NCBI GenBank assembly: GCA_022496185.1
Contig: WTXG01000050.1
Coordinates: forward strand, 124,001 to 188,000
Source: Multifurca ochricompacta
Lineage: Eukaryota > Basidiomycota > Agaricomycetes > Russulales > Russulaceae
Direction of reading: 5' to 3'
DNA: 64,000 nt
Shown in pieces: positions 6,377 to 64,000 of this stretch; within the stretch, counting starts at the first letter, position 1, and each line of letters opens with the position of its first letter. The notes beneath the pieces were generated by a model. It did no database searches, had not been told where the DNA came from, and saw only the letters and a list, made by a program, of their open reading frames with translations. A program made the position numbers and the translations under genes.

Positions 6377-6387
6377 AGACTCGACTT
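6377..6387 (-). promoter_or_regulatory. self-complementary primer-binding site (A1)
   Basis: On the minus strand AAGTCGAGTCT lies two bases inside the 5' LTR. It is the exact reverse complement of AGACTCGACTT in the LTR (6610-6620), which begins 34 bases after the TATATAA box (6648-6654), where the transcript should start. This is the Tf1/sushi self-priming layout. No tRNA 3'-end match (TGG start) is seen. Confidence 0.8.
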
Positions 6388-6389
6388 GA

Positions 6390-6971
6390 TGTTACTCTGG
6401 TGTGAGACGTTCTGCACGACTTGTGTGACAGCTCTGTTCGTAGGTTCAGATAAGAGGCCAATAGGACCTCTGGAGTTTCAGGGGAAGAGTCAAAGTCAAA
6501 GGGGCTGCTCCCTAGTGACGATGTTAAGTGGAAAGTGCCGAAAGCACTGAGATGGTCGAGTCAAAGAGTTCAGGGGAGAGTCCGAAAGACAAACACCGAT
6601 GTATTCAATAAGTCGAGTCTGAGGTCTACAGCATAGCTACAGCGGACTTATATACGTAACTCAATGGCGTCTACAAGATAAGGATACGGAGTCAAGTGGG
6701 CCCGAATATACAGAAGCGGACGGCGTAAAGTCTAGCTTCTGATAGGGTATTAAGTAAGTGTCCGTCGTAAAGATAAGGTGATAAGAAGATAAAGAATCAA
6801 GCATGAGTAAACATCGCATCAACAGATACAAAGTGAGTCATGGGGATGGAAGTAAGGCATGTGACGGATCCCACGATGGAGACGTGATTGAGAAGTGTAG
6901 GGTGGGTGGCAAGGAGGGGTCGTCGTTGGGAATGTGAAAGAAAACGGGGATGGATGGCAGAGGTCGTAACA
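6390..6971 (-). repeat. 5' LTR of A1 (582 bp)
   Basis: Bounded by tgttac and gtaaca (TG...CA). Minus-strand TATATAA at 6648-6654. Closely similar to the A2 and A3 LTRs. Flank on the right is Cop1 leader. Confidence 0.93.
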
Positions 6972-7254
6972 GCTATACACCCTTTGTCTCTAATGGAACT
7001 TGCGGTTGGCTCCTCCATGACATGACTCCCAGTCTTGTTTACACTGGACACTCTGGCTAGTCTACCAGAGCTTATGTCCAGTTACAGGATTGCGCTAGAC
7101 AGCTTTACTATACCTAGAAAGTCGCACAACAAAGGCAGGACCTTCTTAGGTTCTGAAGCATAGCGCCACAGTATAGGGTGGCACTCTTAAGCAAGACCTG
7201 GGCACTGGTTCTAACTGCTCCTTGGAACCAGGAACACTTTATAACATCTCAAAA
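6972..7254 (+). other. Cop1 leader, 3' part
   Basis: Non-coding; parallels 48851-49132 of Cop3 and the inverted stretch before the Cop2 start codon. Ends in ttataacatctcaa just before the gag ATG at 7255. No open frame of note. Confidence 0.8.
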
Positions 7255-7289
7255 ATGCCGTCCTCTATTGTCTTCCCTCCCTCCTCCAA
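7255..7289 (+). pseudogene. gag: Cop1 gag, first 12 codons cut off by the solo LTR
   Basis: ATG at 7255 reads MPSSIVFPPSS and is then split by the solo LTR. The same start is intact in Cop2 (47477) and Cop3 (49133), so this is the true start of the polyprotein. Confidence 0.85.
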
Positions 7290-7886
7290 TGTTACAAACC
7301 CCGCTACATCGTCTTGTTTCCCTTTTCCTCTTCATGTGACCCATTGTTTGGTTGTGCTTGCGCCTCTGTTGACTGTGTTGTGACTGGCGTTGTACTTATT
7401 TGTCCCTTATCTTTGACCCGGGGCTGTGCTTATCTCTGACTCATATTTTACACAAGAACTCTTACGTATTTTCCCACCAGAATCGCAACTATACCGGATC
7501 CGTCTACATATATTCTCATCTGGCCCACAGTGACTCCATTCCCCATTCAGATATATTACGACTTTGTTGATACATCGAGTACGACACTCCGATTCAGACT
7601 CCAACCTCTATTACATATATAAGGCCTGCCTAGATAGCCTGTATGCCTTAGACTCGACTTCTTAATTGACTTGGTGCATTACCTTCTGGGTGATTCCTAA
7701 GACCCGACTCTTGAATCGTCTCAGTGCTTTTGGCACTCTTCTGCTCACCGATACTAGGGGATTAGCTCCTTGGTATTGACTCCTCACCTGAACTTCGTGC
7801 ACTTGAAAGACAGTGCACACCTGACTTCGTAGTTTTGCTACACGATTTATCACACGTTGTGACGAATGCCCACACCAGGCATTACA
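7290..7886 (+). repeat. solo LTR, gypsy family B (597 bp)
   Basis: Starts tgttac, ends attaca, flanked by the 5-bp duplication tccaa (7285-7289 and 7887-7891). Matches the B1 LTRs in inverted orientation, with TATATAAGG near 7614 and the AGACTCGACTT transcript start after it. A single LTR with a perfect duplication is the normal product of LTR-LTR recombination of a full element. Confidence 0.94.
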
Positions 7887-7892
7887 TCCAAG

Positions 7893-12623: not shown

Positions 12624-13211
12624 TGTTACATCCGGTGTGGGACATTCTGCACGATGTGTGCGACAGCGTTGGTCAGAGGTTTCAGATAAGAAGCCAATAA
12701 GACTTCTTAGAGTTTAGAGGGATGAGTCAAAGTCAAAGGGGCTGTTCCCTATGACAGTGTTAAGTGGAGAAGTACCCAAAGTACTGAGACAGACGAGTCA
12801 AAGAGTTCAAAGGGAAGTCCAGAAGACAAACACCAATGTATTCAATAAGTTGAGTCTGAGGTCTACAAGGTAGCTACAGCGGACTTATATATGTAACTCA
12901 GTGGGCGTCTATGAGATAAGAATACGGAGTCAAGTGGGCCCGAATATCTGAAAGTGGAGGGCGTAAAGCCTGGCTTCTGATAGGGAACTAAGTAAGTGTC
13001 CAATCATAAGATAAGGAGATAACAAGATAAGAAAGGCAAGCATAGACAAATAGTGTATACACAAGTCCAAACAACAGTCACGGGGATGGGAGCAGTGCAT
13101 GTGAGGGGTCCCACGAGGGAGATGTAATAAGGAAGTGCAACGTCGGTGGGTGAGTGGGGTCTCTGTTGGGGAGGGTAAAGAAAATAGGGCTGCTGGGCCC
13201 TGGTCGTAACA
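12624..13211 (-). repeat. 3' LTR of A2 (588 bp)
   Basis: tgttac to gtaaca. The transcript-start match reads AGACTCAACTT here, one CpG decay away from the primer site. Purine tract follows at 13212-13226. Confidence 0.94.
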
Positions 13212-17426: not shown

Positions 17427-18016
17427 TGTTACATCTGGTGCAGGACGTTCCACATGACTTGTGTGACAGCGTTTGTTCATTATCAGGTAAGAAACCAATA
17501 AGGCCTCTTGGAGTTATGCGGGAAGAGTCAAAGTCAAAGAGGCTGTACTCTAAGACGATGTTGAACGGGAAGTACCAGAAGTACTTGAGATGGTCGAGTC
17601 AAAGGGTCCAAAGGGAAGTCCAGAAGACAAGCACCAATGTATTCAATAAGTCGAGTCTGAGGTCTACAAGGTAGCTACAGTGGACTTATATATGTAATCG
17701 AATGAGTGTCTAAAGATAAGATAAGGTGGAATCATGTGGGCCCGAATATACGAAAGCAGAGGGCGTAAAGCCGTGCTTCTGATAGGGAATTAAGTAAGTG
17801 TCCGGTCATAGAGATAAGAGATAAGAGATAAGCAATGATGAGCCAAACATAAGTACAACGACACAAACAAGGGCAAAGGCAGTCATGGGGAAGGGAGTAG
17901 GGCACGTGATGGGTCCCAGGAAGGGGACGTGATCAAGAAGTGGAGAGTCAGTGGAAGGGAAGGGTCGTCGTTAGGGAGAGTGAAGAAAATTGGGTTGCTG
18001 GGCAAGGGTCGTAACA
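17427..18016 (-). repeat. 3' LTR of A3 (590 bp)
   Basis: tgttacatctgg to gtcgtaaca. Keeps the exact AGACTCGACTT transcript start on the minus strand (within 17640-17665). Purine tract follows at 18017-18032. Confidence 0.94.
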
Positions 18017-18047
18017 TCACCCCCTCTTCTGGTTCTAGCAGACCCGG

Positions 18048-19247
18048 CTAGAAACGACTCGTACCATCATCATCCTGCACTAGATCTAGATAGTCGTCAG
18101 CTACATTACGATCATCCAGGGAGTAATTCTCTTTGTCCGAATCCTGGGGACATTGATGAGTGCGGAGAAACCCGTAAGGGCCATGCTGTCCACACGAGTA
18201 GCAGAGATCATGAACGGGGCAGTCCAGCTCACAATGTCCCGCGTTGTGGCGAAGACACTTGCCACACCATCCGGAGGGGTTGATGATGGTTGGAGCAACG
18301 CCAATGCGACGGAAAATGCAGAACCGGCTCCAATGCAGATTGCTGCGGCAATGACGACACCATTTGCAGTTGAGGGGACAGTTCCAACTAATGTGGTACT
18401 TGCTGTCGCACTGCCAACATGTCTCTCCGCGGGGGTTCTTGTGCATTCGCGGCATCTCGAACCGGTTTGGCAGCAATGTGGGAGCAGCTCCCAATGATCG
18501 TGGAGGGAGGGGTCGTGCATATGTGTTGGCATACCTTTCGGCGATTGTCTGATACGCATCTCCCTTTTCTAACCTCTTCCTAATCTCCACCAATTCCTGT
18601 TCCACCTGGAACATTCCACTCGTCAGCCGCGTCATCATCTTTGCGTGTTCTTTATACTGTCTATTGAGTGTTGTGCGCAGTGTCAGGTTCTTCCGCAGTC
18701 TCATCACTTCGGCTTTGAGACGCGGAAGGCGCATGTCGTTCAGCACTTCGTCGATGGCGAAGGCCCAGGAGTCTTCAGCAGCCAGGTGTCCGAGCTGCTT
18801 GTCGCTCATTGTGTGGTGGAGACGTCCTGTGTATCTTTCTTCCAAATAAACTGGGGCCCCATAAACTGGACCGTTCTTCTTCATGCATCCGGCCACATCC
18901 ATCCCTCCATTGGTATAAAAGATGTACTTAGCTATAGCGACCTCTCCATCGGCCATGGTGATTTTGAGAGGGTAGTACATGGACAAGTTTGGGTTGTTGG
19001 CAAAGAACGGGAATTCTGGGACTTCATCATCCAACTCCATCCCCAAAAGGTCGTTTGGGTGAGGCTCTTCGCAGTGGTCGAAGTTGTCATTGGGGTTGGG
19101 GGATTGGTTTTTGACTCGTGCCTTGGCGGCTTCATAATCAATGGGGGAGGAGGGGCGTGTAGAAGGATGGGCAGACGGGAAGTTCTCGATGACTACGGTG
19201 GGAGAAGTGAAGGCATCGACAGCGGCATTGGCAGCAACAAAAGACAT
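18048..19247 (-). CDS. post-pol accessory protein with four zinc knuckles (A3)
   Basis: Uninterrupted 399 codons from MSFVAANAAVDAF to TAG; an upstream in-frame ATG at 19286 also exists. Order: low-complexity acidic N-terminus, conserved middle (YIFYTNGGMDVAGC, GAPVYLEERYTG), predicted coiled coil (RLKAEVMRLRKN to EIRKRLEKGD), then knuckles at 18378-18419 and 18318-18359 (both CX2CX4HX4C), 18219-18266 (CX2CX6HX4C) and a looser fourth at 18150-18203 (CX2CX11HXC), and an acidic tail. Unlike A1 and A2 it is one frame off from pol because of an indel after the pol stop. Function unknown; a gag-like nucleic-acid chaperone role is possible. Confidence 0.82.
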   Translation of the reverse strand: MSFVAANAAVDAFTSPTVVIENFPSAHPSTRPSSPIDYEAAKARVKNQSPNPNDNFDHCEEPHPNDLLGMELDDEVPEFPFFANNPNLSMYYPLKITMADGEVAIAKYIFYTNGGMDVAGCMKKNGPVYGAPVYLEERYTGRLHHTMSDKQLGHLAAEDSWAFAIDEVLNDMRLPRLKAEVMRLRKNLTLRTTLNRQYKEHAKMMTRLTSGMFQVEQELVEIRKRLEKGDAYQTIAERYANTYARPLPPRSLGAAPTLLPNRFEMPRMHKNPRGETCWQCDSKYHISWNCPLNCKWCRHCRSNLHWSRFCIFRRIGVAPTIINPSGWCGKCLRHNAGHCELDCPVHDLCYSCGQHGPYGFLRTHQCPQDSDKENYSLDDRNVADDYLDLVQDDDGTSRF

Positions 19248-19324
19248 GATAGAGTGGAGGGTGTTAGAACGTTGCTGAGAGAGCATGTACTGGGGAATTT
19301 GGTGAGGTCTGGGGTTGTCCCCTT

Positions 19325-22300
19325 TTAACTGTTCTTGGGCACTTCTGGGTGTCAGGTGTGGAACTCCGAGATAAGGACCGGGGCGAAGATATCCCCGGCT
19401 GGTTCCCACGAATTGTCAGAGGCTGGGAATCCTTTCCACTTGATCAGGTAATACAGCTTGCGCCCTCGGCCTTGTCGCTTCGAGTCTAGAATGTGTTCTA
19501 CTTCCCACTCTTCTTCCCCATCGATTAGGTCAGGTGGGGGTCTTGGGAAGTTCCCTCCATGAAGGGAGGTTTCCTTATACGGGGTCAGAAGCTTGGCATG
19601 GAAGATGGGGTGGATCTTCCATTTCGGCGGCAATTGCAGTTCATAAGACACATCTGACAGCTTCCGCATGATCTGGAAGGGTCCATGACATCGGGGTGCT
19701 AGTTTGGCCGAGGGGTGTGAGGTGTGAATGTTTCGCCCCTCTAGCCATACCCAGTCATTGGTCTGATAAGGTGTGAATGTACTTGGCCTTGTTGCCATAA
19801 GTTGCTGTGCCTTTACCAGATTTTCATTGGCGGATTGCCATAGCTGCTCCCATTGGCCCATCCGTTGGGTTACTGAAGGGACATTAGTGGGTTTATTGGC
19901 CCATGTGGTACACAGAGTCCAGCCCATGATAAGGGAAAATGGGGTGGCTTTTGTTGTCCCGTTGGGCCATGAGTTATGAGCAAACTCTGCCATTGATAAC
20001 CATTCTGCCCAGTCATCTTGCCGGGTGTTGCACCAAAACCGAAGGTATTGTTCTAACCATTGGTTTGTTCGCTCAGACTGTCCATCCATCTGTGGGTGGT
20101 AAGCCATTGAGATATTCTGTGTAATGTCTAACACTTTGCACAGGGCTTTAGTGAAGGCCGAGGTGAATCGTGTATCTCGGTCGGATATAATCTTCCTAGG
20201 GAGTCCGTAGTGGCGGTATACATGGTTCAGATAGAGCTTTGCCACTCCCTCAGCTGTAATGGTTTCGTTGCAGGGAATAAACAAGGCTGCCTTGGAACAG
20301 TTGTGATCGGTGATTGTGAGGATAGTGTTGAAACCCTGTGACTTGGGTAGTTTGACTATGAAGTCCATGGCAATAGTCTGGAAGGGGGTTGACGAGATAG
20401 GAGTGATGGGGTACATTGGTGGGACTTTTGGGTGTGTGTTGACTTTGTTTGCTTGACATGCTGCACATCCCTGTATGTAGTTCTCGACGTCCTTTTTCAT
20501 GTTGGGCCACCAATAGTCTCGTTTGGCCAGGGCGTAAGTGTTGGCAATGCCAGGGTGTCCTGCGGAAGGGAGGTCATGGTGAAAATGGATCACCCCCCTC
20601 TTAATGTTGTCGCCACCGGTGACAACGAGTCGATCTCCATCCTTCCACCATAGGCCATTGACTTCCTTTAGGTTGTGTGCCTCAGCCCATGAACGGCATA
20701 GTTCTTGATTCATATTTTGGGAGATTTGCGCCCACAGGTCCATGTTGTGGAGACTGACTATGGCAGTCTTTGCGAAGACTTCCTCTGGTAGAACGGTGAC
20801 GTCATTATTGTCATCTTCACCCGTATGCATATCTGACCTGCGCGACAGCGCATCCGCTCTAGCATTCTGGCTTCCAGCAATATGTTTCAAGGTGAAGTTA
20901 TACTCCTCTAGCTCCAGGACTTCTCGTGCCACACGTCGACTGATTTTATGGGGTTCCTTCCAGTATAGTAGGTTGGAATGGTCAGTATGGATGATGGTCT
21001 TATGGGGAGTTCCTGCCAGGTAAGGTCGCCAGTGTCGCAGTGCCTTGACTATGGCTAGGAGTTCTCTGTCCCAGATGTCATAGTTCCATTCAGCTGGCGA
21101 GAAAGTTTCGGAATAGTATGCCACCGGGTGAAGTATTTGCATGGCATCCCTCTGGTACAGCACGGCCCCATTTGCAAAGTGAGAGGCATCCACTTCTAAT
21201 TCAAAGGGACAGCTCAGATCTGGTTGAATGAGTACTGGTTCTGAGCCGACAAGGTCCCTAATTTGTTCAAAAGCCCATTGCTGCGCTGTATCCCAATGCC
21301 ATGGTATATCCTTTTTCAATAGATCATTTAAGGGGCATGCGATGCCTGAAAATCCCTTGACAAAGCATCGATAGAAGTTACAGAATCCGATGAATGATCG
21401 GACGTCCTTGACGCAGGTTGGCATGGGCCACTCCCAGATTCCTTGTACTTTAACAGGGTCCATGTGTACTTGTCCTCCTTCTAAAATAACTCCCAGGTAT
21501 TCGACGCTCCGCTGCTCGAAGGAGCACTTGGCTGGTTTGAGATACAGGTTGTGTTCTCGTAATATGTCCAGTACCTGATGTACGCGCTCTCGATGGTGGT
21601 CTAAGTCGTCTGGGGTGGCTACTAAGATGTCATCCATATAAACCACCACTTCACCGGTGAGGATAAGGTCGCGGAAGATGTGATTCATCATGGATTGGAA
21701 CGTTGCGGGCAAATTCATAAGACCAAAGAACATGACATTTGGTTCGAATAGCCCTTGATTTGTTTTGAATGTGGCTTTACACTGGTCACCGTCTTTGATT
21801 CTGACATTGTTGTAACCCCATCGTACGTCCATTTTGGAGAAGAGGGACTTATTCCTCATGATGTCAATGAGCTCAGAGATAAGTGGCAAGGGATAGGTGT
21901 TTTTTATAGTGTAAGCATTGATTCGCCGGTAGTCCTGGACTGGTCGCAACTTGCCGTCCTTCTTTTTGATGAAGAAGAAGGGCAAGGCATACTGTGACTT
22001 GGATGGGTGAATATATCCCTTTGCCAAATGTTCTTCGAGGAATTCTGTCAGCGCTGCTTGTTCAGACTGGGACAATGGGTAAATCTTGCAGTCTATTGCT
22101 GCCGGCGTGTCGGGGAGTAGATCTATGGCATGATCCCATGGTCAGGAGGGTGGAAATCGCTGCGATTCTTCTTCAGAGAACACTTTCCAATGCCGGTGAT
22201 AGACATGCGGTACTATGTTGCTGTAAGTCTTCTCTTTCTGCCCCTGTATTGCTTTCTGGGCTAACTCTGATGCCTTGGTCGCATAGCAGTGGCCTAGGTC

Positions 22301-22812
22301 TTCCTCACTTGTGTCTGCTGCTCTTACTTCCCTATGTCTGACTGCATAGTCATATCCTATTGACGTAATGATGGTGGGGTAGGAATCTTTGTCCATCGTT
22401 GCGTCAGTCCAGTTAATTTTGGGTTCGAATGCGGCAAGCCATGGATACCCCAAAATAAGGTCTTCGTCCCCTAAGTTGGTGATCAGGAAATGGATAACCT
22501 TTGTTGTTTCCCCAACTTGGACATTTAGGTCGGTGTAGTGTGTGATCTTTCCAGCGCGATTGGCTGTTCCATCAATATTCCAGATATTTTTCTCTGTGGG
22601 GAGTGCCTGCATCCCTAGTCCTAAGGTTTTAATCATCTGTGGACTGATGAAGTTATCTGTGGCTCCAGAGTCCACCAGGATATCTCAATCGGCCGTCCTC
22701 TGTGTAGTTTCGAAATGAACTGGTATTTTCAACGATTTGAATCGACTAGTATACACAGAGGTAACATGGAGTGCTTGCGCCCAGGCCGATGGGGTAGAGC
22801 TCATCAAAAATC
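19325..22812 (-). pseudogene. pol: gypsy pol of A3, four TGA stops
   Basis: Near full length. Protease DSGATDNF near 22670, RT with YMDDILVATPDD near 21630, RNase H, integrase (SDRDTRF, DGQSERTNQ) and chromodomain (LIKWKGFPASDNSW) near 19390-19450, ending at TAA 19325. TGA stands where CGA is expected at 22685, 22142 and 19352. The 907-codon run 22075-19352 is open. Reading enters from gag by the -1 site at 22807. Confidence 0.92.
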
Positions 22813-23408: not shown

Positions 23409-23409
23409 A

Positions 23410-24918: not shown

Positions 24919-24958
24919 TTACCCCCTTCTTATGGTTGTGCTTGCCCCCAAGCACCCC

Positions 24959-26061: not shown

Positions 26062-26064
26062 TCA
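26062..26064 (-). promoter_or_regulatory. TGA CTA stop between C1 pol and its extension
   Basis: The stop is followed in frame by CTA. UGA CUA is the leaky context used for programmed readthrough, including peroxisomal isoforms in fungi. It may instead be a decayed CGA like the other stops here. Confidence 0.4.
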
Positions 26065-30602: not shown

Positions 30603-31028
30603 AAATTAAGAGGGTCATTCTTTGGTTGTCTCGTGGTATGACTGAGTTGGGTATGTGTTCGTCCTGGTTCGGTGAGTGTAATGGTGGCCATTTCTTCAAG
30701 AAGGGGTGGAAGTCTGGATGGGAGAGGTGCTGTGGGGGTTTCGGTTTGGGGGCTTTCAGCAGGGGAATCACTTGCGAGTAATGCAAAGCGATTTTGGTTT
30801 TCGAATGGTACGTCTCCAAATCTTTGTCTGGCTGACTGTTCTGGTAGGTTTCGTTCTGGTGACTGGTAGTCGAGGGATTCGTCGTCTGTCGAGGAGGCCG
30901 AGGAGGTCAAAGGGGTCTGGGGTTCGCATGCCGAATATGACGTGATTGTTCCGGGTTCGTGCAAGGGGACGTGTCGTCAGTTGCCTTGCGGTTTTGGGTG
31001 AGTGGTTCTGTTTTCTGTGAAGTCTGAA

Positions 31029-31038
31029 AGTCTGTTCT
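31029..31038 (-). promoter_or_regulatory. self-complementary primer-binding site (C1)
   Basis: AGAACAGACT on the minus strand, two bases inside the LTR. Exact complement of AGTCTGTTCT in the LTR (31294-31303), which starts 35 bases after TATTTAA (31332-31338). Confidence 0.78.
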
Positions 31039-31040
31039 AA

Positions 31041-31618
31041 TGTCACAGCCAGGTGCTAACTGTGTGCAAGTCAATTCGCGTCAAGGAGATTAAATCAAGT
31101 ATCAATGCTTCAAGGGGATCACCAAGTCATTCAAGCTCTGAAGGTCGCAGCAGATGCGCGCGCGAGTCGAAATTGGACAGAGACGCGTAGTCTTGTCACT
31201 AGATACTGGGGACGAAGACTCCTAAGGCGCGGCTTAGGGGCTCAAGTGGAATCAAGGTTCTTGTCTGATATGGAACACCTGTATTGGCACAGGAGAACAG
31301 ACTTGGTCTGTCTCTGTGAACTGGTAGGTCCTTAAATACAGGGATATTGACAGTAATCTAACATAACTATCTAGGCTTATGACGACTGATAGGGCTGGGT
31401 CATAGCTATGTCACAACTACATCATGGAGGGGTGAGCAGTCTGGGCAAACCAGTGGGAGATGCAGGTGGATAAGGAGGGGCTACGTCGTTAGAAGTCATG
31501 CTAGTCTAGATGTAAATAAAAGAGAAGCTTAATATGTATAACCCTGGAGTGATAAGTGACGAAACGCCGAAACGCAAGGTCGAACGCCGAAATGCGAAAG
31601 TCGAAAATACATGTTACA
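31041..31618 (-). repeat. 5' LTR of C1 (578 bp)
   Basis: Twin of 24341-24918. Differs at six CpG sites only, by eye. Confidence 0.95.
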
Positions 31619-33382: not shown

Positions 33383-33970
33383 TGTTATGTCTGGTGTGGG
33401 ATGTTCTGCATGATGTGTGTGACAGCATTGGTCAGAGGTTTCAGATAAGAAGCCAATAAGACTTCTTAGAGTTTAGAGGGATGAGTCAAAGTCAAAGGGG
33501 CTGTTCCCTATGACAGTGTTAAGTGGAGAAGTACCCAAAGTACTGAGACGGACGAGTCAAAGAGTTCAAAGGGAAGTCCAGAAGACAAACACCAATGTAT
33601 TCAATAAGTTGAGTCTGAGGTCTACAAGGTAGCTACAGCAGACTTATATACATAACTCAGTGGGCACCTATGAGATAAGAATACGGAGTCAAGTGGGCCC
33701 GAATATCTGAAAGTGGAGGGCGTAAAGCCTGGCTTCTGATAGGGAACTAAGTAAGTGTCCAATCATAAGATAAGGAGATAACAAGATAAGAAAGGCAAGC
33801 ATAGACAAATAGTGTATACACAAGTCCAAACAACAGTCACAGGGATGGGAGCAGTGCATGTGAGGGGTCCCACGAGGGAGATGTAATAAGGAAGTGCAAC
33901 GTCGGTGGGCGAGTGGGGTCTCTGTTGGGGAGGGTAAAGAAAATAGGGCTGCTGGGCCCTGGTCGTAACA
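33383..33970 (-). repeat. 5' LTR of A2 (588 bp)
   Basis: Twin of 12624-13211, followed by the target duplication ccaat. The mismatch pattern is mostly CpG decay. Confidence 0.94.
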
Positions 33971-37773: not shown

Positions 37774-38367
37774 TGTAACGCCTGGTGCGGGCGTTCGTCA
37801 CAACGTGTGAGGAGTCACGTAGCAAAACTACAAAGTCAAGTGTGCACTGTCTTTCAAGTACACGGAGTTCGAGTGAGAAGTCAATACCAAGGAGCTAATC
37901 CCTTAGTACCGGTGAGCGGAGGAGTGCCAGAAGCACTGAGACAATTCAAAGGTCGGGTCTTAGGAATCACCCAGAAGGTAATGCACCAAGTCGATTAAGA
38001 AGTCGAGTCTAAGGCATACAGGCTATCTAGGCAGGCCTTATATACGTAATAGAGGTCGGAGTCTGAATCGGAGTATCGTACTTGGCGTATCAACAAGATC
38101 GTAATATGTCCAAAGAGGGAACGGAGTCAAGTGGGCCAGATGAGAATATACGTAGACGGATCTGGTATAGTCATGATTCTGGTGGGAAAATACGTAAGTG
38201 TTCCGACGTAAAGTACGAGTCATAGATAAGCACAGCATGAGTCAGAGATAAGGGACAAACAGGGACAAAGCCTGTCACAACACAGTCAACAAAGAGGATC
38301 AACACGTCCCAACAACAAGTCACATGATGGGGAAAGGAGACAAGACGATGCAGTGGGGTTTGTAACA
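37774..38367 (-). repeat. 3' LTR of B1 (594 bp)
   Basis: tgtaacgcctgg to tttgtaaca. Keeps the perfect partner of the primer site (38000-38010), 34 bases after TATATAA (38038-38044). Confidence 0.95.
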
Positions 38368-38398
38368 TTACCCCCTCTCTAAGTCCTAGCAGAGCCAG

Positions 38399-44685: not shown

Positions 44686-44694
44686 AGTGGGGAG

Positions 44695-44705
44695 AGACTC
44701 GACTT
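44695..44705 (-). promoter_or_regulatory. self-complementary primer-binding site (B1)
   Basis: AAGTCGAGTCT, as in family A, two bases inside the LTR. Perfect partner in the left LTR; one CpG mismatch in the right LTR (44934-44944). Confidence 0.8.
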
Positions 44706-44707
44706 AA

Positions 44708-45301
44708 TGTAACACCTGGTGCGGGCGTTTGTCACGACGTGTGAGGAGTCGCGTAGCAAAACTACGAAGTCAAGTGTGCACTGTCTTTCAAGTACACGGA
44801 GTTCGAGTGAGAAGTCAATACCAAGGAGCTAATCCCTTAGTACCGGTGAGCGGAGGAGTGCCAGAAGCACTGAGACAATTCAAAGGTCGGGTCTTAGGAA
44901 TCACCCAGAAGGTAATGCACCAAGTTGATTAAGAAGTTGAGTCTAAGGCATACAGGCTATCTAGGCAGGCCTTATATACGTAATAGAGGTCGGAGTCTGA
45001 ATCGGAATATCGTACTCGGCATATCAACAAGATCGTAATATGTCCAAAGAGGGAACGGAGTCAAGTGGGCCAGATGAGAATATACGTAGACGGATCTGGT
45101 ATAGTCGTGATTCTGGTGGGAAAATACGTAAGCATTCCGACGTAAAGTACGAGTCATAGATAAGCACAGCATGAGTCAGAGATAAGGGACAAACAGGGAC
45201 AAAGCCTGTCACAACACAGTCAACAAAGAGGATCAACACGTCCCAACAATGAGTCACATGATGGGGAAAGGAGACAAGACGACGCAGTGGGGTTTGTAAC
45301 A
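44708..45301 (-). repeat. 5' LTR of B1 (594 bp)
   Basis: Twin of 37774-38367, equal length. Differences are few and mostly CpG. Confidence 0.95.
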
Positions 45302-52514: not shown

Positions 52515-53090
52515 TGTTACAACTCACTGTCGACTGCCTGGACAGTGGGTTGTATGCAAAGGGGAAGGGGTTTTGGAAGTGGGCAAAGGATGAGAGTGAG
52601 GGTGAAAGTGCAAGGGAGACGAAGTGAACAGCTCAAGGGCAAGGGATGAGAAGCCTTCCACAAGGTGCGGCTAATCTCCTAGGTAATCAGGAACCGGATC
52701 ACAAGTGGACAGTCTGGAGCTGTCCATTCTATTCCAAAAGGGTTTATATACATAATTACAACTGGGACTTTGGCCTGTGCACCACTTTAGGGGAGGTTAA
52801 CTTCACTTTAACTCCCTACTGATCCACCAATGAGAATAGCCCCACTTTTGGGCTTAGAAATCCGCAGTCCGCAGTCCGCAGTCTGTGGGCTGCTGTTTAG
52901 GCATTGTGGGGTTCTGTTAGTACTCTTCCCACAGGTCTCCAATTTGGCAGGAGTCCGGCCCTGGTCCAGACTGGCCTTTCTCTGGTCTTAATCTAGGGTT
53001 ATCTTCGTCTTTGAGGGTTCTACAAGGTCTCTGGGAGCGTCTGGGGACTTCTGGGAGGTCAAGAGGTTTTCTGGGTGTCAGTTCATGACA
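52515..53090 (-). repeat. 3' LTR of D1 (576 bp)
   Basis: tgttacaactc to ttcatgaca. Holds a 7-bp tandem repeat (cagtccg, about three units) near 52861. Purine tract AAAGAGGGG follows on the minus strand. Confidence 0.92.
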
Positions 53091-53179
53091 CTATCCCCTC
53101 TTTAGGGTCTTGCTGTGCCACAGCAAGTTTGTCAGAGGTGTGGGGGTCTAGGCAGGGTGGGGTGTCGATGATGGAAGTC

Positions 53180-56100
53180 TCAAAGCAGGGTCATGGCATT
53201 CTTCATTTCAGTGAAGGGGACCCAAGAGTTTTCTGAGGCAGGGTAGCCTTTCCATTTGACAAGGTAACAGATGCCCTTCCTGTTAGGGGTGTGAGCAGAC
53301 TGTAAGATGGTCTCTATCTCGTAATGGTCTTCTTCCCCATTCACAAGTTCTGGTGGTGGTCGAGTGAAGTTGGGTCCATGGACTGGGGTTTCTTTGTAGT
53401 GGGACAGGAGAGAGTTGTGAAAGACTGGGTGGATGCGCCATGACTTGGGAGTTCAAGCTTGCAGTTAACAGGGCCAGAGTGTATGACTTTGAAAGGACCA
53501 TGGTGTTGGGGGCTGAGTTTGGCTTTGGGGTGAGTGGTGCATATATTTGTCCCTTCCAACCAAACCAGCTCTCCTGTTTTGAAAGCATGGAGGGGTCCAT
53601 CTGGTCTCAATTGTTTCATGAGCTTTGCAGCCACCTGGAGGGCAGCAGCTACTTCACTACGGATAATTTCTAGGGTGCAGAGTCTTTCTTCCACTGACAG
53701 GATAGGGGTGGTGAAATGGAGTGGGGGAATAAACTCTGGTTGGAAGCCATACCAGATTTCAAAGGGAGATCTTTTAGTAGCACTGTGAGTTCTAGCATTG
53801 TGGGCAAACTCCATAAAGGGGATCAGTTCTGCCCAGTCATCTTGTTGGAAGTTGCAAAAGACACGGAGGTATTGTTCTAGTTCTTGGTTGACCCGTTCAG
53901 TCTCTCCATCAGTCTGGGGGTGATAGGCGGTGCTCAAGGATGATTGTACCCCTAGCTTGCTCCACATTTCCTTCATGACTTTGGATGCAAACTGGGGGCC
54001 TCGATCAGAGATGACTTGGTCTGGGAGGCCAGTGCGTCTCCATACATGTTCAAGGAATAGTTTGGAGGTTTCTGGAGCAGTGATATCTTTGGTGCAAGGA
54101 ACAATGATGGTGGCTTTACTGAACCAGTCCACCACCACAAATAGGGAGTCATATGACTGAGACAGGGGTAAATCTGTGATGAAGTCCATGGTGATTGTTC
54201 CCCATACTCGAGTTGGAACTTGGTTGGGTTGCAAAGGGATGGGTAGTCGAGGTTGAACTTTGGTTTCTTGGCAGGTGGCACATCCATCCACATATTCTTT
54301 GACAAAGGAGGACATCCCTGGCCACCAAAATTCTCATGATACTAGTTCATAGGTTTCCATCTGCCTGGATGTCCTGTGGCAATGGAATCATGGTGTAACT
54401 TTACAATGTCTCTTCGTAGTTCTTGGGACTTGGGGATGTAGACTTGGCCTTTATGTAGGATTAGGCCATTCTCTAGGTTCCAGTCCTCCAGTCCTTTGGC
54501 GAGGGAGCATGGCCCATTGTGCAAGATGGTGGTCAGGGCTTGGGTGACTTCATCGTCATGGTCTTGGCAGTCTTTGATTCTGTGGTGTAGAGTGGAGTCA
54601 TGAGTTGTTGTGACTGTGGTTTTCATGGCCTGAATGCAAAAGAACTTAGAGTCCAGGAGTATGCGCTCATCATTGTCATGCTCTATCCCCTCTTTATGGT
54701 CTGGATGCCAGGACAGAGCATCAGATTTGTTGAAAGAGCCAGGTTTGTGAACAATGGTGAAGTTGTATTGAGACAGTTCAAGGGCCCACCATGCTTGGCA
54801 GTGGGAGAGCTTCTGCTTGGAGCGGAAGTAAGTCAGGTTGTTGTGGTCAGTCCACACTCAAAGGGAAGGGCTGCGCCCTCAAGGTAGTGTCTCCAGGTGT
54901 CCAGAGCATGAACAATGGCAAGAAGTTCTTTGTCATGGATGTCATAGTTGTGTTCAGCATCCAGCATGGACTTGGATAGGAAGCAAGGGGATGGTAGCGA
55001 TTGAGTTCATCAGGTTGTTCAAGGATAGCACCAATAGCAAAGTCACTGGCATCAGTGATGACATGGAAAGCTTTAGTATGGTCAGGGAGGGCGAGGACAG
55101 GGGCAGTGGTGAAAGCATTCTTTAGGGTGGAAAAGGCAAGGTCATGGTCAGAAGTCCAGAGGAAAGGGGTATCTTTCTTGGTGAGATCATGGAGGGGGCA
55201 GGCAATAAGGGAGAAGTCTTTGATAAAATGTCGGTAGAAGTTGCAGAATCCAAGGAAGGCTTGGAGTTGCTTTAGGGTGGTGGGGGAGGCCATTTGTAAT
55301 ACCCTCTAATTTAGCAGGGTCCATCTGGACACAGCCAGCTGTGATGACTAGGCCAAGATATCAATGGTTGTCTGAGCAAAGGTACACTTCTCAGGCTTTA
55401 GATATAAGTCAAACTGTTGGAGGCGTTGAAGGACTTGGTGAGTAAGTGTTCTGTGGTGTCCATGGTGTCTGTAAATATTAAGATGTGTCCATATAGATGA
55501 CAACATGGTCGTGGCAAGGAGATCTTCGAAGGCTCTATTCATGAAGGCTTGGAATGTGGCAGGGGAGTTACAGAGTCCAAAGAACATGACAAGGGGTTCA
55601 AAGAGACCTCGGTTGGTCTTAAAGGCAGCTTTCCATTCATCTCCTTCTTTGATACGGATATTGTTATATCCCCAGCGATATCAAACTTGGTGAAGTAGTG
55701 AGCATGGTGAAGTTTGTCAATGAGTTCTGGGATCAAGGGTAGGGGGTAAGCATTCTTTACTGTGATTTCATTCAAGGCTCGATAATCTTGGACAGGACAT
55801 AGTTTTCCATCCTTCTTTTTTACAAAGAAGAAGGGGCTAGCAATGGGGGACTTAGATTCTCTGATATATCCCTTGGCAGGTGGTCATTTAAGAAAATGTC
55901 CAGGGCTTTCTGTTCTTCAGGGGTGAGCTTGTAGATGCCGCAGTCGGCACTTTGGCATCTGGTTTGAGTTCTATGGCATGGTCCCATGGTTGGTGCTGTG
56001 GCAAACATTGAGAGGCTTTCTCTTCAAAGACAGATCGGTATGTGAGGTATTCAGGAGGGAGTTGGTCTTCTAAGGATGTAGGGGTCTTTACTTGATCTGC

Positions 56101-56844
56101 AGCAATCTGAGTGGATATGGTGGTCTTGGCACGGATATGGACAATGAATTTGGGAGGCACTTCTTCTGGGTAATCATGGGGTGATCTGTGATTAGGGCTG
56201 CAAAGGTTTCTGCTGCTGCTATGAGTGTCTGGTCCATCAGGGGTTGTACTGTGATTGTAGACAGGGCGGGCAAGAGGGGTGTGTCGAAGCAAAGGTCAGA
56301 GGGGTCATGGTAAGGGTGCAGGATGTGGGGCAATGTTTTAAGGTCAGGGTGTCATCTTTCCAGTTTACTTCTGGGTTGTGGCAACGTAGCCAGTCAGTTC
56401 CTAAGATAATGTCATGGTCCCCTATATTAGTAACATAGAACTCTGCAAGTTCTTCATGGTATTGGTCTCGGAGGGGTAGTCGTAGGATTTGGGTTGTGGT
56501 GTAGTAAATGGCTCTGTTAGCATTACTAGTTCCATCCACATTTTTGACTCAGAGAGGCTTGGCAAGGGTGCTCAAGGTTAGGTGATGTGCTTTGGCATAG
56601 TCTTGATGGATTATTAATCCTTCTGCCCCACTATCTATTAGGGCATGGCACTGATTTTCTTCCTAGTGTTTGTCCAATGAGTTCTGCTTTGAGCACAATA
56701 GAAGGTGATCTAGCATTTCTAGTCACTAACAAGGATACATGCTCAAAACCAAGGTTATCTAGGACCGCAGAGCGGTCGTACAAGGAACACTGGGGTTACA
56801 AGAAGTCCTCACAGACAGTGCAGCTGTAGGATGTGTTAAAAATC
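53180..56844 (-). pseudogene. pol: gypsy pol of D1, many frame breaks
   Basis: Protease region (NIGDHDIILGTDWLRCH, with an upstream DSGAE near 56630), RT ([37 protein letters not shown]), RNase H, an open 324-codon integrase stretch (54315-53341: CATCQETK, MDFITDLPLS, SDRGPQF, GETERVNQ) and a chromodomain (YLVKWKGYPASENSW) ending TGA 53180. At 55485-55500 one base is lost in the YMDD codons (GGACACATC for GGACGACATC). At least six other shifts or stops. Confidence 0.88.
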
Positions 56845-59013
56845 CAAAGGTCTGTCTTCATCCATCATGTATGGTACTGGATCTTCATAGCTCTTGGTAG
56901 CAGATACTGAGAGGTAGTCAGGGGGGGTCGTGGTGCTTGGGGGGGTGCTTCTTCTGATGCCAGGGCTCTCACTGGGGTAGGGCGAGGAGGTCCTTGACCT
57001 TGGATGGCTCTGGTCTTGCTGGGCATTGATTGGTGATGTGATTAGGCTTCCCACAATAGAAGCAAAGCTTATTTTCTCGTCGATACTTCTTTTCTTCTGG
57101 GGTTAACTTGGTAGTGCATGGAGGGGTGTTAGGGTTTCTGGGCTGGGAAGAGGCAACAAAGTTGACTTGGGCTTCTGGGTTGTCAGTGGTAGCTTCTCCA
57201 ACATGCAGATGGAGAGGCTGAGGCTTGGTGGTCTTGCCATAAAGCTGCCATGCTGCATCAAATTCTCTGGCCTTAGTGACAAGATCTGGAGTGTGGTGGG
57301 CTGGGGGGATAGTCCAAGGAGCTTCTGTCCTAGACCTTGATTGATCATGCTTCGGAAGGCATAGATCTTGGTGTTTTCATCCACTGTAGCACGAGTAGCA
57401 TGGGTGGACCATTCTTGGTACCAGTCATTGAAGGGGCGAGTGCCTTGGCGAATTTCATACATGGCTTGGTGGACAGGAGGCGACTCTCTACTGGAATGAA
57501 CTGTTTTTCAAAGTCAATTCTGAAGCGGTCCCAGTCCCGAAGGAAGGGGGGTTGGCTTGGAGTGCAGTGTTGGTGCGGTCTCTGGCCCATTCGCCTGCTG
57601 GTGTATCAAGTTTAAAGTGGGTGAGGGCTGCAGAGACTTGTCTACTCTCATCAGTGAAGGCACCTTCATTCAGGTAGTAGTAGTTGGCTAGCTGGGACCA
57701 GAAACATTCTGCTTTAGAGCTTGACCATCAAAAGATTCTGGGGGTGATCCCAGGATCTTTCCATTGGAGGTGGCAGTAGTACTCATGATATTCAGAGGTG
57801 TTGGTGTCTTTGGAGGGTGTGAAGCAATAGCAGTAGTTGTGGAGGCAAGGGATATGGATGGGAGAGTAGGGGGGGTTCTGAGGGTGATAGCATGAAGGGA
57901 TTGCTCTACAGCTTCAAGGGACTGGGATACTTCTTCTTCATCTGAGGTGATAGAAGCAACTGGGAATTGGACATGGTGGTTATTAAGGTAGACCCACGCT
58001 GTATGGGTGTCAGACCAACGGACTTCCTTTCCGTTGTATGTTCCTAGAATGTGTGGGGGTCAAGGTTGCTGATGAGGTCGATGTTGGGGAAATTACTGAG
58101 ATATTCGTTTACAGGAAGGATGCAACTGTCCCAAGACGTTTCCAGTCGTGTCCAAGAGTCTGAGTGTAGTAGTTGTCTCCTTTCCAGGTAGCAACAAAAG
58201 CACGGTTGTCATAGTCAAAGATAGGGTGGGTAAAGCCAAAGGGGACTTGAGCTAATTCTTCAGCAGTAAGAGATCGTTCTGAGGTCATTCAGAGCAGGTG
58301 CTAAGGCGGTATGTAGTCCACCCTTGGGCGTTCCAGGCGTAGTAGACTTGATAGGCTGGGCGAAGGACAGCACGGTCTAGACGATAGTTGCGGATGTTTC
58401 TGTGGATCCAGTAATACTCTTCAACTATTCCTGGGGCAGAGATAACAATGCGAAGTCGCCAAAGGAGGTTTTCAAAGTACAGGGGGTCTGTGGTGATACG
58501 ATTAGCTTCACTCAAGGGATGGTAGATGTCAAGGTGATTGGCTCTTTGAGTTGCAAGCTGAGCAGAACAATGAAGGTGGAATTCTCATAGTTCACTAGGG
58601 TTTCGAGTGGGTAATGTCCTAGAGACAAAGATATCTGTGGCAGGATAGATATGGTTGACTTGATGAACAATGGAAGGGGATGGGACCAAGACTGATCAGA
58701 TTCTACTACTGGGAGGTTCAGGAAGGGTGTTGATGTCAAGGCAAGCTGGGTGGATGTTGGTGGGATGGGGGAGTAGTTTAGATGAGCGAGGAAGGGTTCT
58801 GGGACAGGGGGAATTGGTGTTCTGGCGGTGGTGCACTAGGACTGGGTGGGTTTGTGCTCTTTGTCTTCTGGAGGTGCGATGGGGGGCAGGTGTGGCAGGT
58901 GTGTCATTGCTACTACGTCTTCTAGGATTTCTTCTTCTGTCTTGGGGGGAGTTGGACTGACTTCTTCTGTGTTGGGATGCCAGGTTGATAGCCCAGTCAG
59001 TAATACTAGCCAC
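56836..59013 (-). pseudogene. gag: gypsy gag of D1, broken
   Basis: Long gag with N-terminal region from a GTG at 59013 (ASITDWAINL), Arg/Ser-rich part, conserved tyrosine-rich stretches (YFENLLWRLRI, PFGFTHPIFDYD), capsid (LANYYYLNEGAF, DWDRFRIDFEKQF, FNDWYQEWSTHA) and knuckle CFYCGKPNHITNQC near 57020-57067. Ends DF-stop at 56836. Start and internal frames are uncertain because of several indels. Confidence 0.75.
56839..56845 (-). promoter_or_regulatory. -1 frameshift heptamer GGATTTT, gag-pol (D1)
   Basis: GAT TTT TAA in gag; GGA TTT TTA in the -1 frame, reading GFLTHPTAAL. The zero-frame stop follows at once. Confidence 0.65.
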
Positions 59014-59259
59014 GATGCAAAGGAGTCTTTTATTTCTTTTCCCTACTTAGATTGAGTAATGTGAAGGTAAGTATGTATCAAAGGCTGAAGGCCTCCACAA
59101 TACTATGCCTAGGGGGGTAGGGGGAGTATCTGGACAAAGTTACAGGTACAGAGGTCAATATCACAGAGGCAGCGTTGTCTGGATACAGGGGAACTTTCTT
59201 CGAAGTCAGAGGTGTTTTCTGTGGGGGTCTCAGATCAGACCAAGTGGTAGTGTTACCAA
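59014..59259 (-). other. spacer between D1 5' ORF remnant and gag
   Basis: Stops in all minus-strand frames; no gene seen. Confidence 0.5.
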
Positions 59260-61130
59260 TTAAGACTGTCTGGGTCTGGGTGAGGCGTTCTTCTTCTTGG
59301 GTGACTGCTGCAAGGGAAAGGGTAGGGAAGGTGAGCTCTTCTGGTTCTGGGGAAGGTTCAGCGTAGGTGGGGAGGTAAGGGGGGTCTGTGAAGATGGGGG
59401 GGTTAACAGGAAGGGGCAGTGGTTGCGTGAGGTGGTCTCCCAGTAATCAGCAGTCCACAGGTATTCAATTTGTATTCCTTCTGTTTCTACAAGGCGCCAG
59501 CCAGAAGGGGAGGGAGCAGAGTGAAGGCGGATCTCATCAAAGGTAAGGTTGATTCTGGTATGGTCTAGATGAAAGGTAGAGAGGTAGTAGAGGCGTTCTC
59601 CTCTGAGCAAGAGTGTTTCAAGTTCTGGGATGAGGGGGAATGTGTTCTTTCCAAAGGTATTCGTCGTTGACACAGACTAAGAGTGTTTCAAGGGGGTCTC
59701 CTGTGGAATGGGTGAGTTGAGCAAGGTGCCAATAGAGGAGTTGGTGCTGGGAGTCTCGAGGAATGGCCTGACAGGGTCCGGTCAGGAACTGGTTGTACTG
59801 GGTTTGGGAGAGGACTTGTCCAAAGGGGAGGAGAATTCGAAGGGGAAGATAGATGGTATCTACATCACACCAACCTTCTGCTTGTCCATCGTCGTGGAGG
59901 GTGCTGATAAGTGGTTCTGGGTAGAGGAGGGCGAGTTGTGCTTCTCTGTGGAGCTGGAAAGGTGGTTGAATTGTCTTTGGACACGTTGGAGGCGTTCTTC
60001 TCTTTCTGCAGGAAAGGACACTATTTTCTGGACCAAGGAGTTGTCTTTATTTACTAGGGACCTCTACAGTTAGGTGCACAACGTACTGTTTAGAGGTTAC
60101 TATGAAATCTATGTCTTCAAAGCACGAGTACCCGTCTGCAGGTTGGATGGGGAGGAGGGTAAGGGATTGGTAGGTAAGCGGACAGGGTTAATAAGGGGAC
60201 AAGTTCTAAGTGATTCCTGAGTGCATCCCGAACTGTAAAGTATCTTTCCTCCACCAAGACTCCTAAATCAGTGAAGCTCAGGGTCCCGAAGATGCAGATA
60301 AAGCGTCCGTCTAGCAGGTCAAACCCCTGAAGTAATGCTCTGGCTCCACTGAAGACGTCTTGCAATTCTGGGGAGAGGGTGCGGTCCAGGGGGCAATGGA
60401 AGCTTCCAAGAATAGACTAAGAGACCACTGGGGAAGGTGCGAGGGTTGGGGGCCAAGTATCCTACTTTGGCACAGAGATTGAGGTTTACAAAGTGGGAGG
60501 TGGGGTAATGAGGGGAACGAAGGAATCGATCAATGCAAGGACGAATAGGAAGTTATGAAAGTGAGGGAAGCGGATAGGAATGTGAGTCCCAGGGAGGTAA
60601 TTAGCCTGATCACGAAGCACATCCAAGTAGCAGGGAAATTGGTCAAAAAAGCTGACTCTCTGGAAAACTGGGCAGGCACCCAAGACTCCTGTCGACCGTC
60701 AAGCGAGTAGTAGATAAGAAACTGATGAGGGTTGGTTGGATGATCGATACAAATAGGACGATGAACAAGAGAAGGAGGAGGTGTCCGATGGTTAGGGCCA
60801 GGGTGGCGAGGGGAGAGGGCGTTTGCAGTAGTGGGAGGGGGTGGAGCTGGGGTTGGAAGGCGAATATAACGAGGAGGGGGGGTGCCAAAGGTGTTGGACG
60901 TGTTTAAGAGGCCTGGGGGAACGAGAGGGGGCAATTGGAGGGTGGGGGAGGGCACAGGGAAAGGATGAAGTTCTGGGAGTTCCAGAGGAGGCAAGACCGA
61001 TGAAGGGGGGGCAGGGGATGCTGTGGCAGCTGCCTCTACTAAGGCAGCGAAGTTGAGGATTTCGTGGGGGGGGGTAAGCTCGTAGGGGGGGAGGCTGCTT
61101 GATCCGAGGTGTAGGACACAGGAGAGCTGT
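59260..61130 (-). pseudogene. unrecognised broken coding region at the D1 5' end
   Basis: Between primer site and gag lie protein-like stretches in changing frames: a Pro/Leu-rich start (FAALVEAAATASP, LPPLELPELHPFPVP), then YYSLDGRQ, LQDVFSGARALLQGFD, RFICIFGTLSFTDLGV, YNQFLTGPCQAIPRDSQ and ELETLLLRGERLYYLS. They read as one decayed protein of roughly 600 residues with short indels. I recognise no domain. It could be an enlarged gag N-terminus, a captured gene or an envelope-like or accessory ORF; no evidence favours one. Confidence 0.5.
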
Positions 61131-61185
61131 TTTGGGACACTAGGGCACTTTGTCAGTCACTGTCTGCTGTGAAAGAGACTGTCCA

Positions 61186-61195
61186 AATGTTACAA
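61186..61195 (-). promoter_or_regulatory. self-complementary primer-binding site (D1)
   Basis: TGGACAGTCT on the minus strand, two bases inside the LTR. Exact complement of AGACTGTCCA in the LTR (61376-61385), 35 bases after TATATAA (61414-61420). Confidence 0.77.
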
Positions 61196-61197
61196 CT

Positions 61198-61761
61198 CAC
61201 TGTCGACTGCCTGGACAGTGGGTTGTATGCGAGGGGAAGGGATTTGGAAGTGGGCAAAGGATGAGAGTGAGGGTGAAAGTGCAAGAGAGACAAGCGAACA
61301 GCTCAAGGGCAAGGGATGAGAAGCCTTCCACAAGGTGGGGCTAATCTCCTAGGTAATCAGGAACCGGATCACAAGTGGACAGTCTGGAGCTGTCCATTCT
61401 ATTCCCAAAGGGTTTATATACGTAATTACAACCGGGACTTTGGTCTGTGCACCACTTTAGGGGAGGTTAACTTCGCTTTAACTCCCTACTGATCCACCAA
61501 TGAGAATAGCCCCACTTTTGGGCTTAGAAATCCGCAGTCCGCAGTCCGCAGTTTGTGGACTGCTGTTTAGGCATTGTGGGGTTCTGTTAGTACTCTTCCC
61601 ACAGGTCTCCAATTTGGCAGGAGTCCGGCCCTGGTCCGGACCGGCCCTTCTCTGGTCTTAATCTAGGGTTATCTTCGTTTCTGAGGGTTTTACAAGGTCT
61701 CTGGGAGCGTCTGAGGATTTCTGGGGGGTCAGGAGGTTTTCTAGGGTGTCAGTTCATGACA
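61198..61761 (-). repeat. 5' LTR of D1 (564 bp)
   Basis: Twin of 52515-53090 with about 25 differences and small indels. Directly followed by gypsy A pol. Confidence 0.92.
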
Positions 61762-63543
61762 AGCTGCGGCCAGTCCAGGACTATCGACGAATCAATGCAT
61801 ATACCGTGAAAAACGCCTACCCCCTGCCGCTCATCTCCGAACTCATCGACACTATGAGGGACAAAGCTCTCTTTTCGAAGATGGACGTGCGGTGGGGTTA
61901 CAACAATGTTAGAATCAAGGAGGGTGATCAGTGCAAAGCAGCGTTTAAGACAAACCAAGGGTTGTTCGAACCCAATGTCATGTTCTTTGGTCTCACAAAT
62001 TCGCCGGCAACGTTCCAATCCATGATGAATCACATTTTCCGCGACCTCATTCTCACAGGAGAAGTAGTGGTCTACATGGACGACATCCTGGTTGCTACCT
62101 CAGACAATCTAGACCACCATCGAGACCGAGTGCACCAGGTACTGGATATACTACAAGAATATGACCTGTATCTCAAACCCGCCAAATGCTCCTTTGAGCA
62201 ACGGAGTGTGGAGTACCTAGGAGTCATCTTAGAAGGAGGACGAGTGCATATGGATCCCATTAAAGTGCAAGGAATCCAAGAGTGGCCAGTGCCGACCTGT
62301 GTCAAGGACGTCCGGTCGTTCATCGGATTCTGTAACTTCTACCGACGATTCGTCAAGGGATTTTCAGGCATAGCGCGACCATTGAACGACCTACTGAAAA
62401 AGGACGTACCATGGCATTGGGGTGCGGCACAACAGCAGGCATTCAAACGAATTAGGGACCTTGTTGGGTCAGAACCAGTACTCATTCAGCCGGATCTGAG
62501 TCACCCCTTCGAACTAGAAGTGGATGCCTCTCACTTCGCGAACGGAGCGGTATTATACCAAAGGGACGCCGCACAAGTACTTCACCCAGTGGCATACTAC
62601 TCTGAGACCTTCTCCCCCGCTGAAAGGAACTACGACATCTGGGACAGGGAGCTATTAGCCATCGTAAAAGCATTGCGACATTGGCGACCGTACCTGGCAG
62701 GAACCCCTCATAAGACCGTCATCCACACTGATCATTCCAACCTCCTATACTGGAAAGAACCCCACAAGATCAGCCGACGTGTGGCACGAGAAGTCCTAGA
62801 ATTGGAAGAATATAACTTTACGCTGAAACACATCGCAGGAAGCCAGAATGCTAGAGCAGATGCACTGTCACATAGATCAGACATGCATACAGGAGAAGAT
62901 GACAATAACGACATCACTGTCCTCCTGGAAGAAGTCTTTGCAAGAACGGCCGTGGTCAGTCTCCACGACATGGACCTTTGGGCACAAGTCTCCCAAAATA
63001 TGAATCAAGACCTGTGTATTTCATGGGCCGACACTCACAATTTGAAGAAAATCAACGGTCTTTGGTGGAAAGACGGGGATCGACTCGTTGTCACCGGTGA
63101 TGACAACATTAAGAGGGGGGTGATCCATTTTCACCACGACCTTCCCTCTGCAGGACATCCAGGCATTGCCAACACCTATGCCTTGGCTAAAAGAGACTAT
63201 TGGTGGCCCAATATGAAAAAGGACATTGAAAGCTACGTACAAGGATGTGCGTCATGTCAAGCAAATAAGGTGAACACGCACCCGAAAGTCCCACCAATGT
63301 ACCCCATCACTCCCACTGCATCGACTCCGTTCCAGACCATCGCCATGGACTTCATTGTCAAGTTGCCCAAATCACAAGGCTTCGACACTATCCTCACCAT
63401 CACAGATCATGACTGCTCCAAAGCGGCCCTCTTTATCCCCTGTAACGAAACCATCACAGCCGAAGGAGTGGCAAAACTATACCTGGATCACGTATACCGT
63501 CACTACGGGCTCCCCAAGAAGATCATCTCTGATAGGGATACCC
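61762..63543 (+). pseudogene. pol: gypsy A4 pol fragment (RT to integrase), plus strand
   Basis: Open for about 593 codons without a stop: RT from LRPVQDYRRINAYTVK, YMDDILVATSDN intact near 62080, EGGRVHMD with the CGA that is TGA in A1, RNase H, zinc domain and integrase up to ISDRD. Truncated on the left by D1 and on the right by the family E LTR. Any start upstream in the D1 LTR is accidental. Confidence 0.93.
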
Positions 63544-63990
63544 TGTGACATTTTCTTGCTGCTGTTTCGGCTTTTCTCCTTTTTTCTTCTATGCCCCTCT
63601 CTTTTGATGTCATAGACCTTGTGACCTTAGTATGATATCATAGTACATTACATCTAGACTATGACTTCATAGTAGCTATATTGTATTTAAGGACTTCAAT
63701 AAATCCAAGGACAGACTAAGTCTGTTCTCCTTGTACCAATCAAAGGTCCTTAAGAAGTCCCTTCAGCCCTCTTCCAAGATGTGACTTGAGAGGGTTTGGC
63801 TCACCAGTAACTCCAGCAAAGGCTCTTGCCTTGCTATCTGAACACCCTGACTTCACACGCGACGTTCAGACTCGTTGCCTTGATCCATACTGGCCGCGTG
63901 CTGTGTGACACCTGCCTACCTTGATTGCCTTGATTGACTGTGACCCTGACTGACCTGAACCGACGCACGCCGAAGGACCTGTGTGCGACA
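63544..63990 (+). repeat. 5' LTR of a family E gypsy element (447 bp)
   Basis: tgtgacattttc to gtgcgaca, inserted in A4 integrase. TATTTAA at 63684-63690 and AGTCTGTTCT at 63719-63728. The TATTTAAGGA box and transcript-start match are shared with family C; the rest differs. The element body lies beyond the window. Confidence 0.8.
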
Positions 63991-64000
63991 TTAGAACAGA
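63991..64000 (+). promoter_or_regulatory. start of the family E primer-binding site
   Basis: TTAGAACAGA, identical to the first ten bases inside the C1 LTR. AGAACAGA is complementary to TCTGTTCT in the LTR, 35 bases after the TATA box to the start of the full match. The window ends here. Confidence 0.7.

Follow-up and report, generated by a model that had tools for sequence, protein, structure and literature searches.

Among Tf1/sushi-group chromoviruses, self-priming of reverse transcription from the element's own RNA has been established or proposed for those of fission yeasts, Cryptococcus, fish and mosses, according to the accounts in PMC7175516, PMC4600332, PMC6317226 and PMC10085805. 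In Tf1, the first 11 bases of the RNA are described as the primer, the RNA 5' end being complementary to the primer-binding site (PBS); Tf1 and Tf2 of Schizosaccharomyces pombe, Tj1, Tosmo1-3 and Tcry1 are presented as chromodomain elements with this same complementarity (PMC7175516, PMC4600332, PMC10085805). A three-duplex RNA structure, the "pretzel", is also described for Tf1 (PMC10085805). Tcn1 of Cryptococcus is proposed to self-prime and Tcn2-5 to prime by other ways (PMC7175516); most Tcn1 elements of mosses and club mosses are predicted to be self-priming (PMC6317226), and PMC2864245 mentions one Selaginella Tcn1 element in which no self-priming was found. The sushi elements of fish are cited as self-priming chromoviruses in PMC6317226 and PMC10085805, and the legend to a tree in PMC10085805 names marY1 of Tricholoma matsutake. 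Here, we describe five gypsy families, A to E, in a 64-kb stretch of the basidiomycete Multifurca ochricompacta (contig WTXG01000050.1, positions 124001-188000; genome of 53.8 Mb in 605 contigs), hereafter the window, which very probably prime in the same manner.

In all five families, the PBS lies 2 nucleotides (nt) beyond the 3' end of the 5' long terminal repeat (LTR) and is reverse-complementary to 10-12 LTR bases, a block that starts 33-35 nt downstream of the first T in the TATA box. The primer/PBS pair differs on both sides between families. The Pfam domain Chromo was found in A (copies A3 and A4), B, C and D, accompanied in each by matches to SH3_Tf2-1, that of C falling under the curated cut-off. 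With these domains, families A-D are Ty3/gypsy chromoviruses and likely members of the Tf1/sushi group. The best explanation is that A-D are chromoviruses, that E is a non-autonomous relative with an internal deletion, and that all of them, like Tf1, use their own RNA to prime reverse transcription, a reading to which we assign a probability of about 0.92. The predicted self-priming of A-E is the known Tf1/sushi chromovirus mechanism in new elements. Their pairs of 10-12 nt compare with the 11-base primer of Tf1, to which, as to the fungal or moss chromoviruses of the Tcn1 clade and to marY1, they are likened by description only; the sushi elements, likened on the same basis, differ in having a vertebrate host. 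Unlike Tf1 and its fission-yeast relatives, several pair types occur here within one genome. The sites in the window are as follows.

6377..6387, minus strand: A1 PBS AAGTCGAGTCT, 2 nt beyond the 5' LTR end
6610..6620, minus strand: self-primer block AGACTCGACTT of the A1 5' LTR, 34 nt downstream of the initial T of TATATAA
33370..33380, minus strand: A4 PBS AAGTCGAGTCT
33606..33616, minus strand: A4 self-primer block AGACTCAACTT, mismatched to the A4 PBS at one position (CpG>CpA)
44695..44705, minus strand: B1 PBS AAGTCGAGTCT
44934..44944, minus strand: B1 self-primer block of its own 5' LTR AGACTCAACTT, one mismatch
38000..38010, minus strand: B1 primer block of the 3' LTR AGACTCGACTT, complementary to the B1 PBS
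31028..31038, minus strand: C1 PBS AGAACAGACTT
31294..31304, minus strand: C1 self-primer block AAGTCTGTTCT, 34 nt after TATTTAA
61176..61185, minus strand: D1 PBS TGGACAGTCT
61376..61385, minus strand: D1 self-primer block AGACTGTCCA, 35 nt after TATATAA
63717..63728, plus strand: E self-primer block TAAGTCTGTTCT, starting 33 nt after TATTTAA (63684-63690)
63993..64000, plus strand: first 8 bases of the E PBS, the remainder lying beyond the window and the whole being present in fetched locus L069

Among the window copies with a 5' LTR, four pair perfectly with it (A1 over 11/11 positions, C1 over 11 nt, D1 over 10/10 and E over 12 nt), two do so with one mismatch (A4, B1), and one has no site (A3). 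An earlier note on this DNA had claimed such pairs for A-E with one spacing of 34-35 nt, which is confirmed apart from minor corrections. The pairs were read directly at these places, and the coordinates and spacing given for A1 were right. In all families, the PBS was said to lie inside the 5' LTR and actually lies beyond the 3' end of that repeat. The B1 PBS does complement 38000-38010 as claimed, yet that partner belongs to the 3' LTR; the partner in its own 5' LTR (10/11) is the one that counts, because the 5' LTR templates the RNA 5' end. For C1 and E the sites were correctly placed, with pairing that extends to 11 nt and begins at 34 rather than 35 in C1, and that reaches 12 nt and begins at 33 in E. 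The 10/10 pairing and the spacing of 35 claimed for D1 were confirmed, and its PBS had been placed 10 bases away from the correct 61176-61185. The spacing is near-constant rather than a single value, at 33, 34 or 35 nt by family and register.

The pairs stand out from their surroundings. In A1, C1, D1 and E, internal offset +2 gives the longest stretch complementary to the element's 5' LTR (11, 11, 10 and 12 nt, respectively), and the best complements at unrelated internal offsets were 7-9 nt, with 380 offsets examined each for A1, C1 and D1 and 194 for E. A motif-agnostic scan was also run over the window and 88 loci, in which a TATA-like word had to be followed 20-49 nt later by a 9-mer whose reverse complement lay 120-600 nt downstream, 0-3 nt after ACA. 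It returned 120 reverse-complement matches (12 distinct 9-mers), 115 of them 33-37 nt past the TATA word, vs 1, 6 and 1 in the reversed, direct and complement control modes. This figure is not a genome rate and its point is the contrast with the control modes, as some of the 120 matches come from 9-mers or TATA registers that overlap, from loci overlapping the window and from deliberately fetched C and D copies (80 of the 120 are D).

Copies elsewhere in the genome carry the same pairs. In family D, 20 of 21 copies pair perfectly and all are spaced at 35 nt. Perfect pairing was found in 10/13 rows of C and E, the other three having a single G.U; one row (L039) is the C1 of the window again, so that the 13 rows represent 12 elements and 9/12 are perfect. 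Of the 30 C loci fetched, the others yielded no PBS row; many align with the query only from the LTR end onward, as 3' or solo LTRs would. For A and B, 36 copies comprise 23 perfect pairs, six with G.U departures only and seven with a mismatch, a mismatch rate that is unrepresentative since 19/36 have an altered PBS, 15 having been chosen for it and some others on purpose; one base is deleted in the PBS of L130, which was excluded from this count. The A/B spacing is 34 nt in 33/36 copies and 35 nt in 3/36.

Two further families, F and G, were found outside the window by forward prediction, one from each side of the pair. Loci fetched for C first revealed family F, by an LTR block that follows TATATAA at 34 nt, and the PBS predicted from this block gave 161 genome-wide matches vs 0 for the reversed control. 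Among about 100 places listed, eight have the spacer ACATT by eye and the rest ACAAG; at 5/8 of the ACATT places, an opposite-strand ACAAG match lies 407-489 nt off, and in the copies that were fetched this match is the LTR block. The bulk of the 161 matches probably represents the LTR block rather than the PBS. All five fetched F copies pair perfectly, four at 34 nt and one at 35; L128, a row under F, is an A copy and was excluded. Family G was discovered as a PBS, and the predicted LTR block is present in both fetched copies, 34 nt after TATTTAA, pairing perfectly in one copy and with a G.U in the other. A genome search with a PBS-type pattern produced 1342 matches vs 68 for the reversed control, and among about 100 matches listed all but three belong, by eye, to one of the five pair types, either as such or in decayed form. 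Further pair types may exist, because this pattern fixed the last five bases (ARWCT).

If these elements follow Tf1, transcription would begin on the first base of the block or on a neighbouring one, the 5' end of the RNA would fold back onto the PBS, the element's RNase H would cut behind the duplex, and the freed end would start minus-strand DNA. The PBS of the new copy would then be re-copied from the primer, keeping the two sites matched. In Tf1-type replication, the plus strand copies the attached primer, and an altered primer writes an altered PBS. Because of this re-copying, covariation between families is expected from self-priming and is good evidence for it, and matched changes would therefore show a pair in use rather than selection restoring pairing. 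The covariation over three pair types to which the earlier note had pointed now extends to five, two of them (F, G) reached by prediction, and its proposal of self-priming from the RNA 5' end is supported as the best explanation of these sequences.

Changes inside family A are a different matter. Copies with PBS AAGTCAAGTCT have primer AGACTTGACTT in 7/13 cases vs 1/17 for copies with the unchanged PBS (Fisher p 0.009), and copies with PBS AAGTTGAGTCT have the matched change in 2/6. We do not claim this as covariation, because CpG sites decay in old copies, the AAGTTGAGTCT class reaches only 2/6, and the seven matched copies do not form one clade in a tree of 34 rows; matched CpG changes of this kind are indistinguishable from decay.

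Several observations weigh against self-priming in A-E. A4 and B1 each pair at 10/11 positions with their own 5' LTR, which carries a single CpG>CpA change, and A3 (17427-23999) has no PBS beside its 5' LTR. The spacing varies, being 34 in A and B, 34 in C (11-nt register), 35 in D and 33 in E (12-nt register), and the family split between 34 and 35 is partly an artefact of the match boundaries chosen. When the sequence between and after the sites was shuffled, 11 to 34 of 40 trials gave an equal or better duplex probability, and the flanking "pretzel" duplexes were no better than shuffles in 15/16 tests at 0.05. Lastly, the sample of 34 distinct transfer RNAs (tRNAs) against which the PBS words were compared lacks initiator tRNA-Met and other isotypes.

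RNA folding predicted the primer:PBS duplex at a mean probability of 0.73-0.96 in six elements. As there was no gain over shuffled spacers, folding was dropped as independent support. The flanking duplexes described in the Tf1 "pretzel" are here indistinguishable from chance and are unsupported, the sole exception among the 16 tests being B1 (0.023); for C1, the slice used in this test was shifted by one base. The folding results would neither favour nor exclude a full pretzel structure. They leave some room for the rival in which both sites pair for circularisation, dimerisation or packaging of the RNA and another primer acts, as pairing is all that the sites themselves display and the predicted fold prefers no intramolecular primer structure over shuffles. 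One of the sites, however, occupies the PBS position 2 nt past the LTR, its partner coincides with the expected transcript start, and related chromoviruses are described as self-priming (PMC10085805, PMC6317226), so that we consider this rival very unlikely.

Slightly less probable still is priming by a host tRNA, through its 3' end or an internal fragment, with an incidental LTR match. TGG is the complement of the tRNA CCA end, and the D PBS does start with TGG, as expected under tRNA priming; it is the only one of the six PBS words (A/B, C, D, E, F, G) to do so. The tRNA sample, drawn from 50/62 tRNA places, yielded 51 genes in ARAGORN, 34 of them distinct, and its missing isotypes leave this rival some latitude. 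Against it, 3'-end matches among these tRNAs reach at best 4 nt for D and 0-1 nt for the other PBS words, internal matches run to 6-8 nt, which is within the shuffled range, and an acceptor-stem pattern fitting the D PBS has one place in the genome, at which no T-arm motif was seen by eye. On the sampled tRNAs and the acceptor-stem search, tRNA priming is unsupported; in the competitor check raised in the earlier note, none of the 34 distinct tRNAs fits a PBS or beats the LTR match, within the isotypes sampled. Coincidence, to which the 8- and 9-nt complements at unrelated offsets might point, is ruled out as the origin of the pairs by the agnostic-scan controls and the offset test, and with fixed positions at both sites and two successful forward predictions its probability is negligible. 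Within the tRNA sample, we also noted that tRNA-Ser(aga)-like genes, 74-75 nt long, recur many times (14/51 genes found, e.g. L032, L035-L038), possibly as a tRNA-derived short repeat.

Element E has LTRs that are identical over 448/448 aligned bases, with about 2.95 kb between them, and is therefore probably a recent insertion. Compared with six window proteins, it matches the integrase ends of A and B (1.6e-26 at best) and, weakly, a C gag piece (4.5e-5). No reverse transcriptase was found in E, the window reverse transcriptase queries giving nothing better than an E-value of 0.49, and an open frame of 393 amino acids is present at L154:1769-2950. E is an internally deleted element, probably non-autonomous and copied in trans, and it retains its 12-nt pair.

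Self-comparison of the window revealed that its gypsy elements are nested and mostly on the minus strand, with the following layout.

6390..6971, minus strand: A1 5' LTR, the 3' LTR lying before the window start
about 33383-33973, minus strand: A4 5' LTR, with the 3' LTR at 12624-13211 and the two LTRs 97% alike
17427-23999: A3, inserted within A4
about 24339-31618: C1, inserted within A4
about 37774-45301, minus strand: B1 (self-comparison)
52515-61761, minus strand: D1 (self-comparison)
63544..63990, plus strand: E 5' LTR, the element continuing past the window end with its 3' LTR outside

The region 12624-33973 is an insertion nest in which both A3 and C1 interrupt A4. An A-type polymerase gene fragment without LTRs, 89% identical to A1, occupies 61761-63541, and E is apparently inserted there. 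Within a copia element, a B-like solo LTR at 7290-7887 (86% to B1) retains a primer block at 7650-7660, 34 nt past its TATA box. No motif-agnostic TATA/9-mer pair was found in the window outside the gypsy families, no copia LTR pair having been delimited. The CpG observed/expected ratio is 0.53 in the window vs 0.85 across the tRNA loci (91 kb), and CA and TG are elevated, which looks like methylation-driven transposon decay. Together with a single above-cut-off hydrophobin match that reads through two stops, this CpG depletion points to a fungal host, perhaps a basidiomycete; a search for 5.8S returned no match.

Our literature search, covering titles and the starts of abstracts of mostly open papers, found no report of a single genome that combines several pair types with a fixed TATA spacing, which is a weak sign of novelty. 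The methods of PMC6317226 already contain the portion of the search rule that concerns the LTR end. Adding the TATA spacing to this rule makes it possible to predict where the partner site lies and where the transcript probably starts, as was done correctly for two families. As a tentative and rather doubtful extension, the primer/PBS pair may be a freely drifting, self-consistent address that has passed through five types without a lasting unpaired state, that may separate co-expressed families, and that would allow non-autonomous elements such as E to retain an address of their own when copied in trans. To our knowledge, direct experiments on self-priming are limited to very few elements. 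The five pair types of this genome, each present in at least two copies and at a near-fixed distance from the TATA box, offer a natural collection for reading the start site jointly with the primer.

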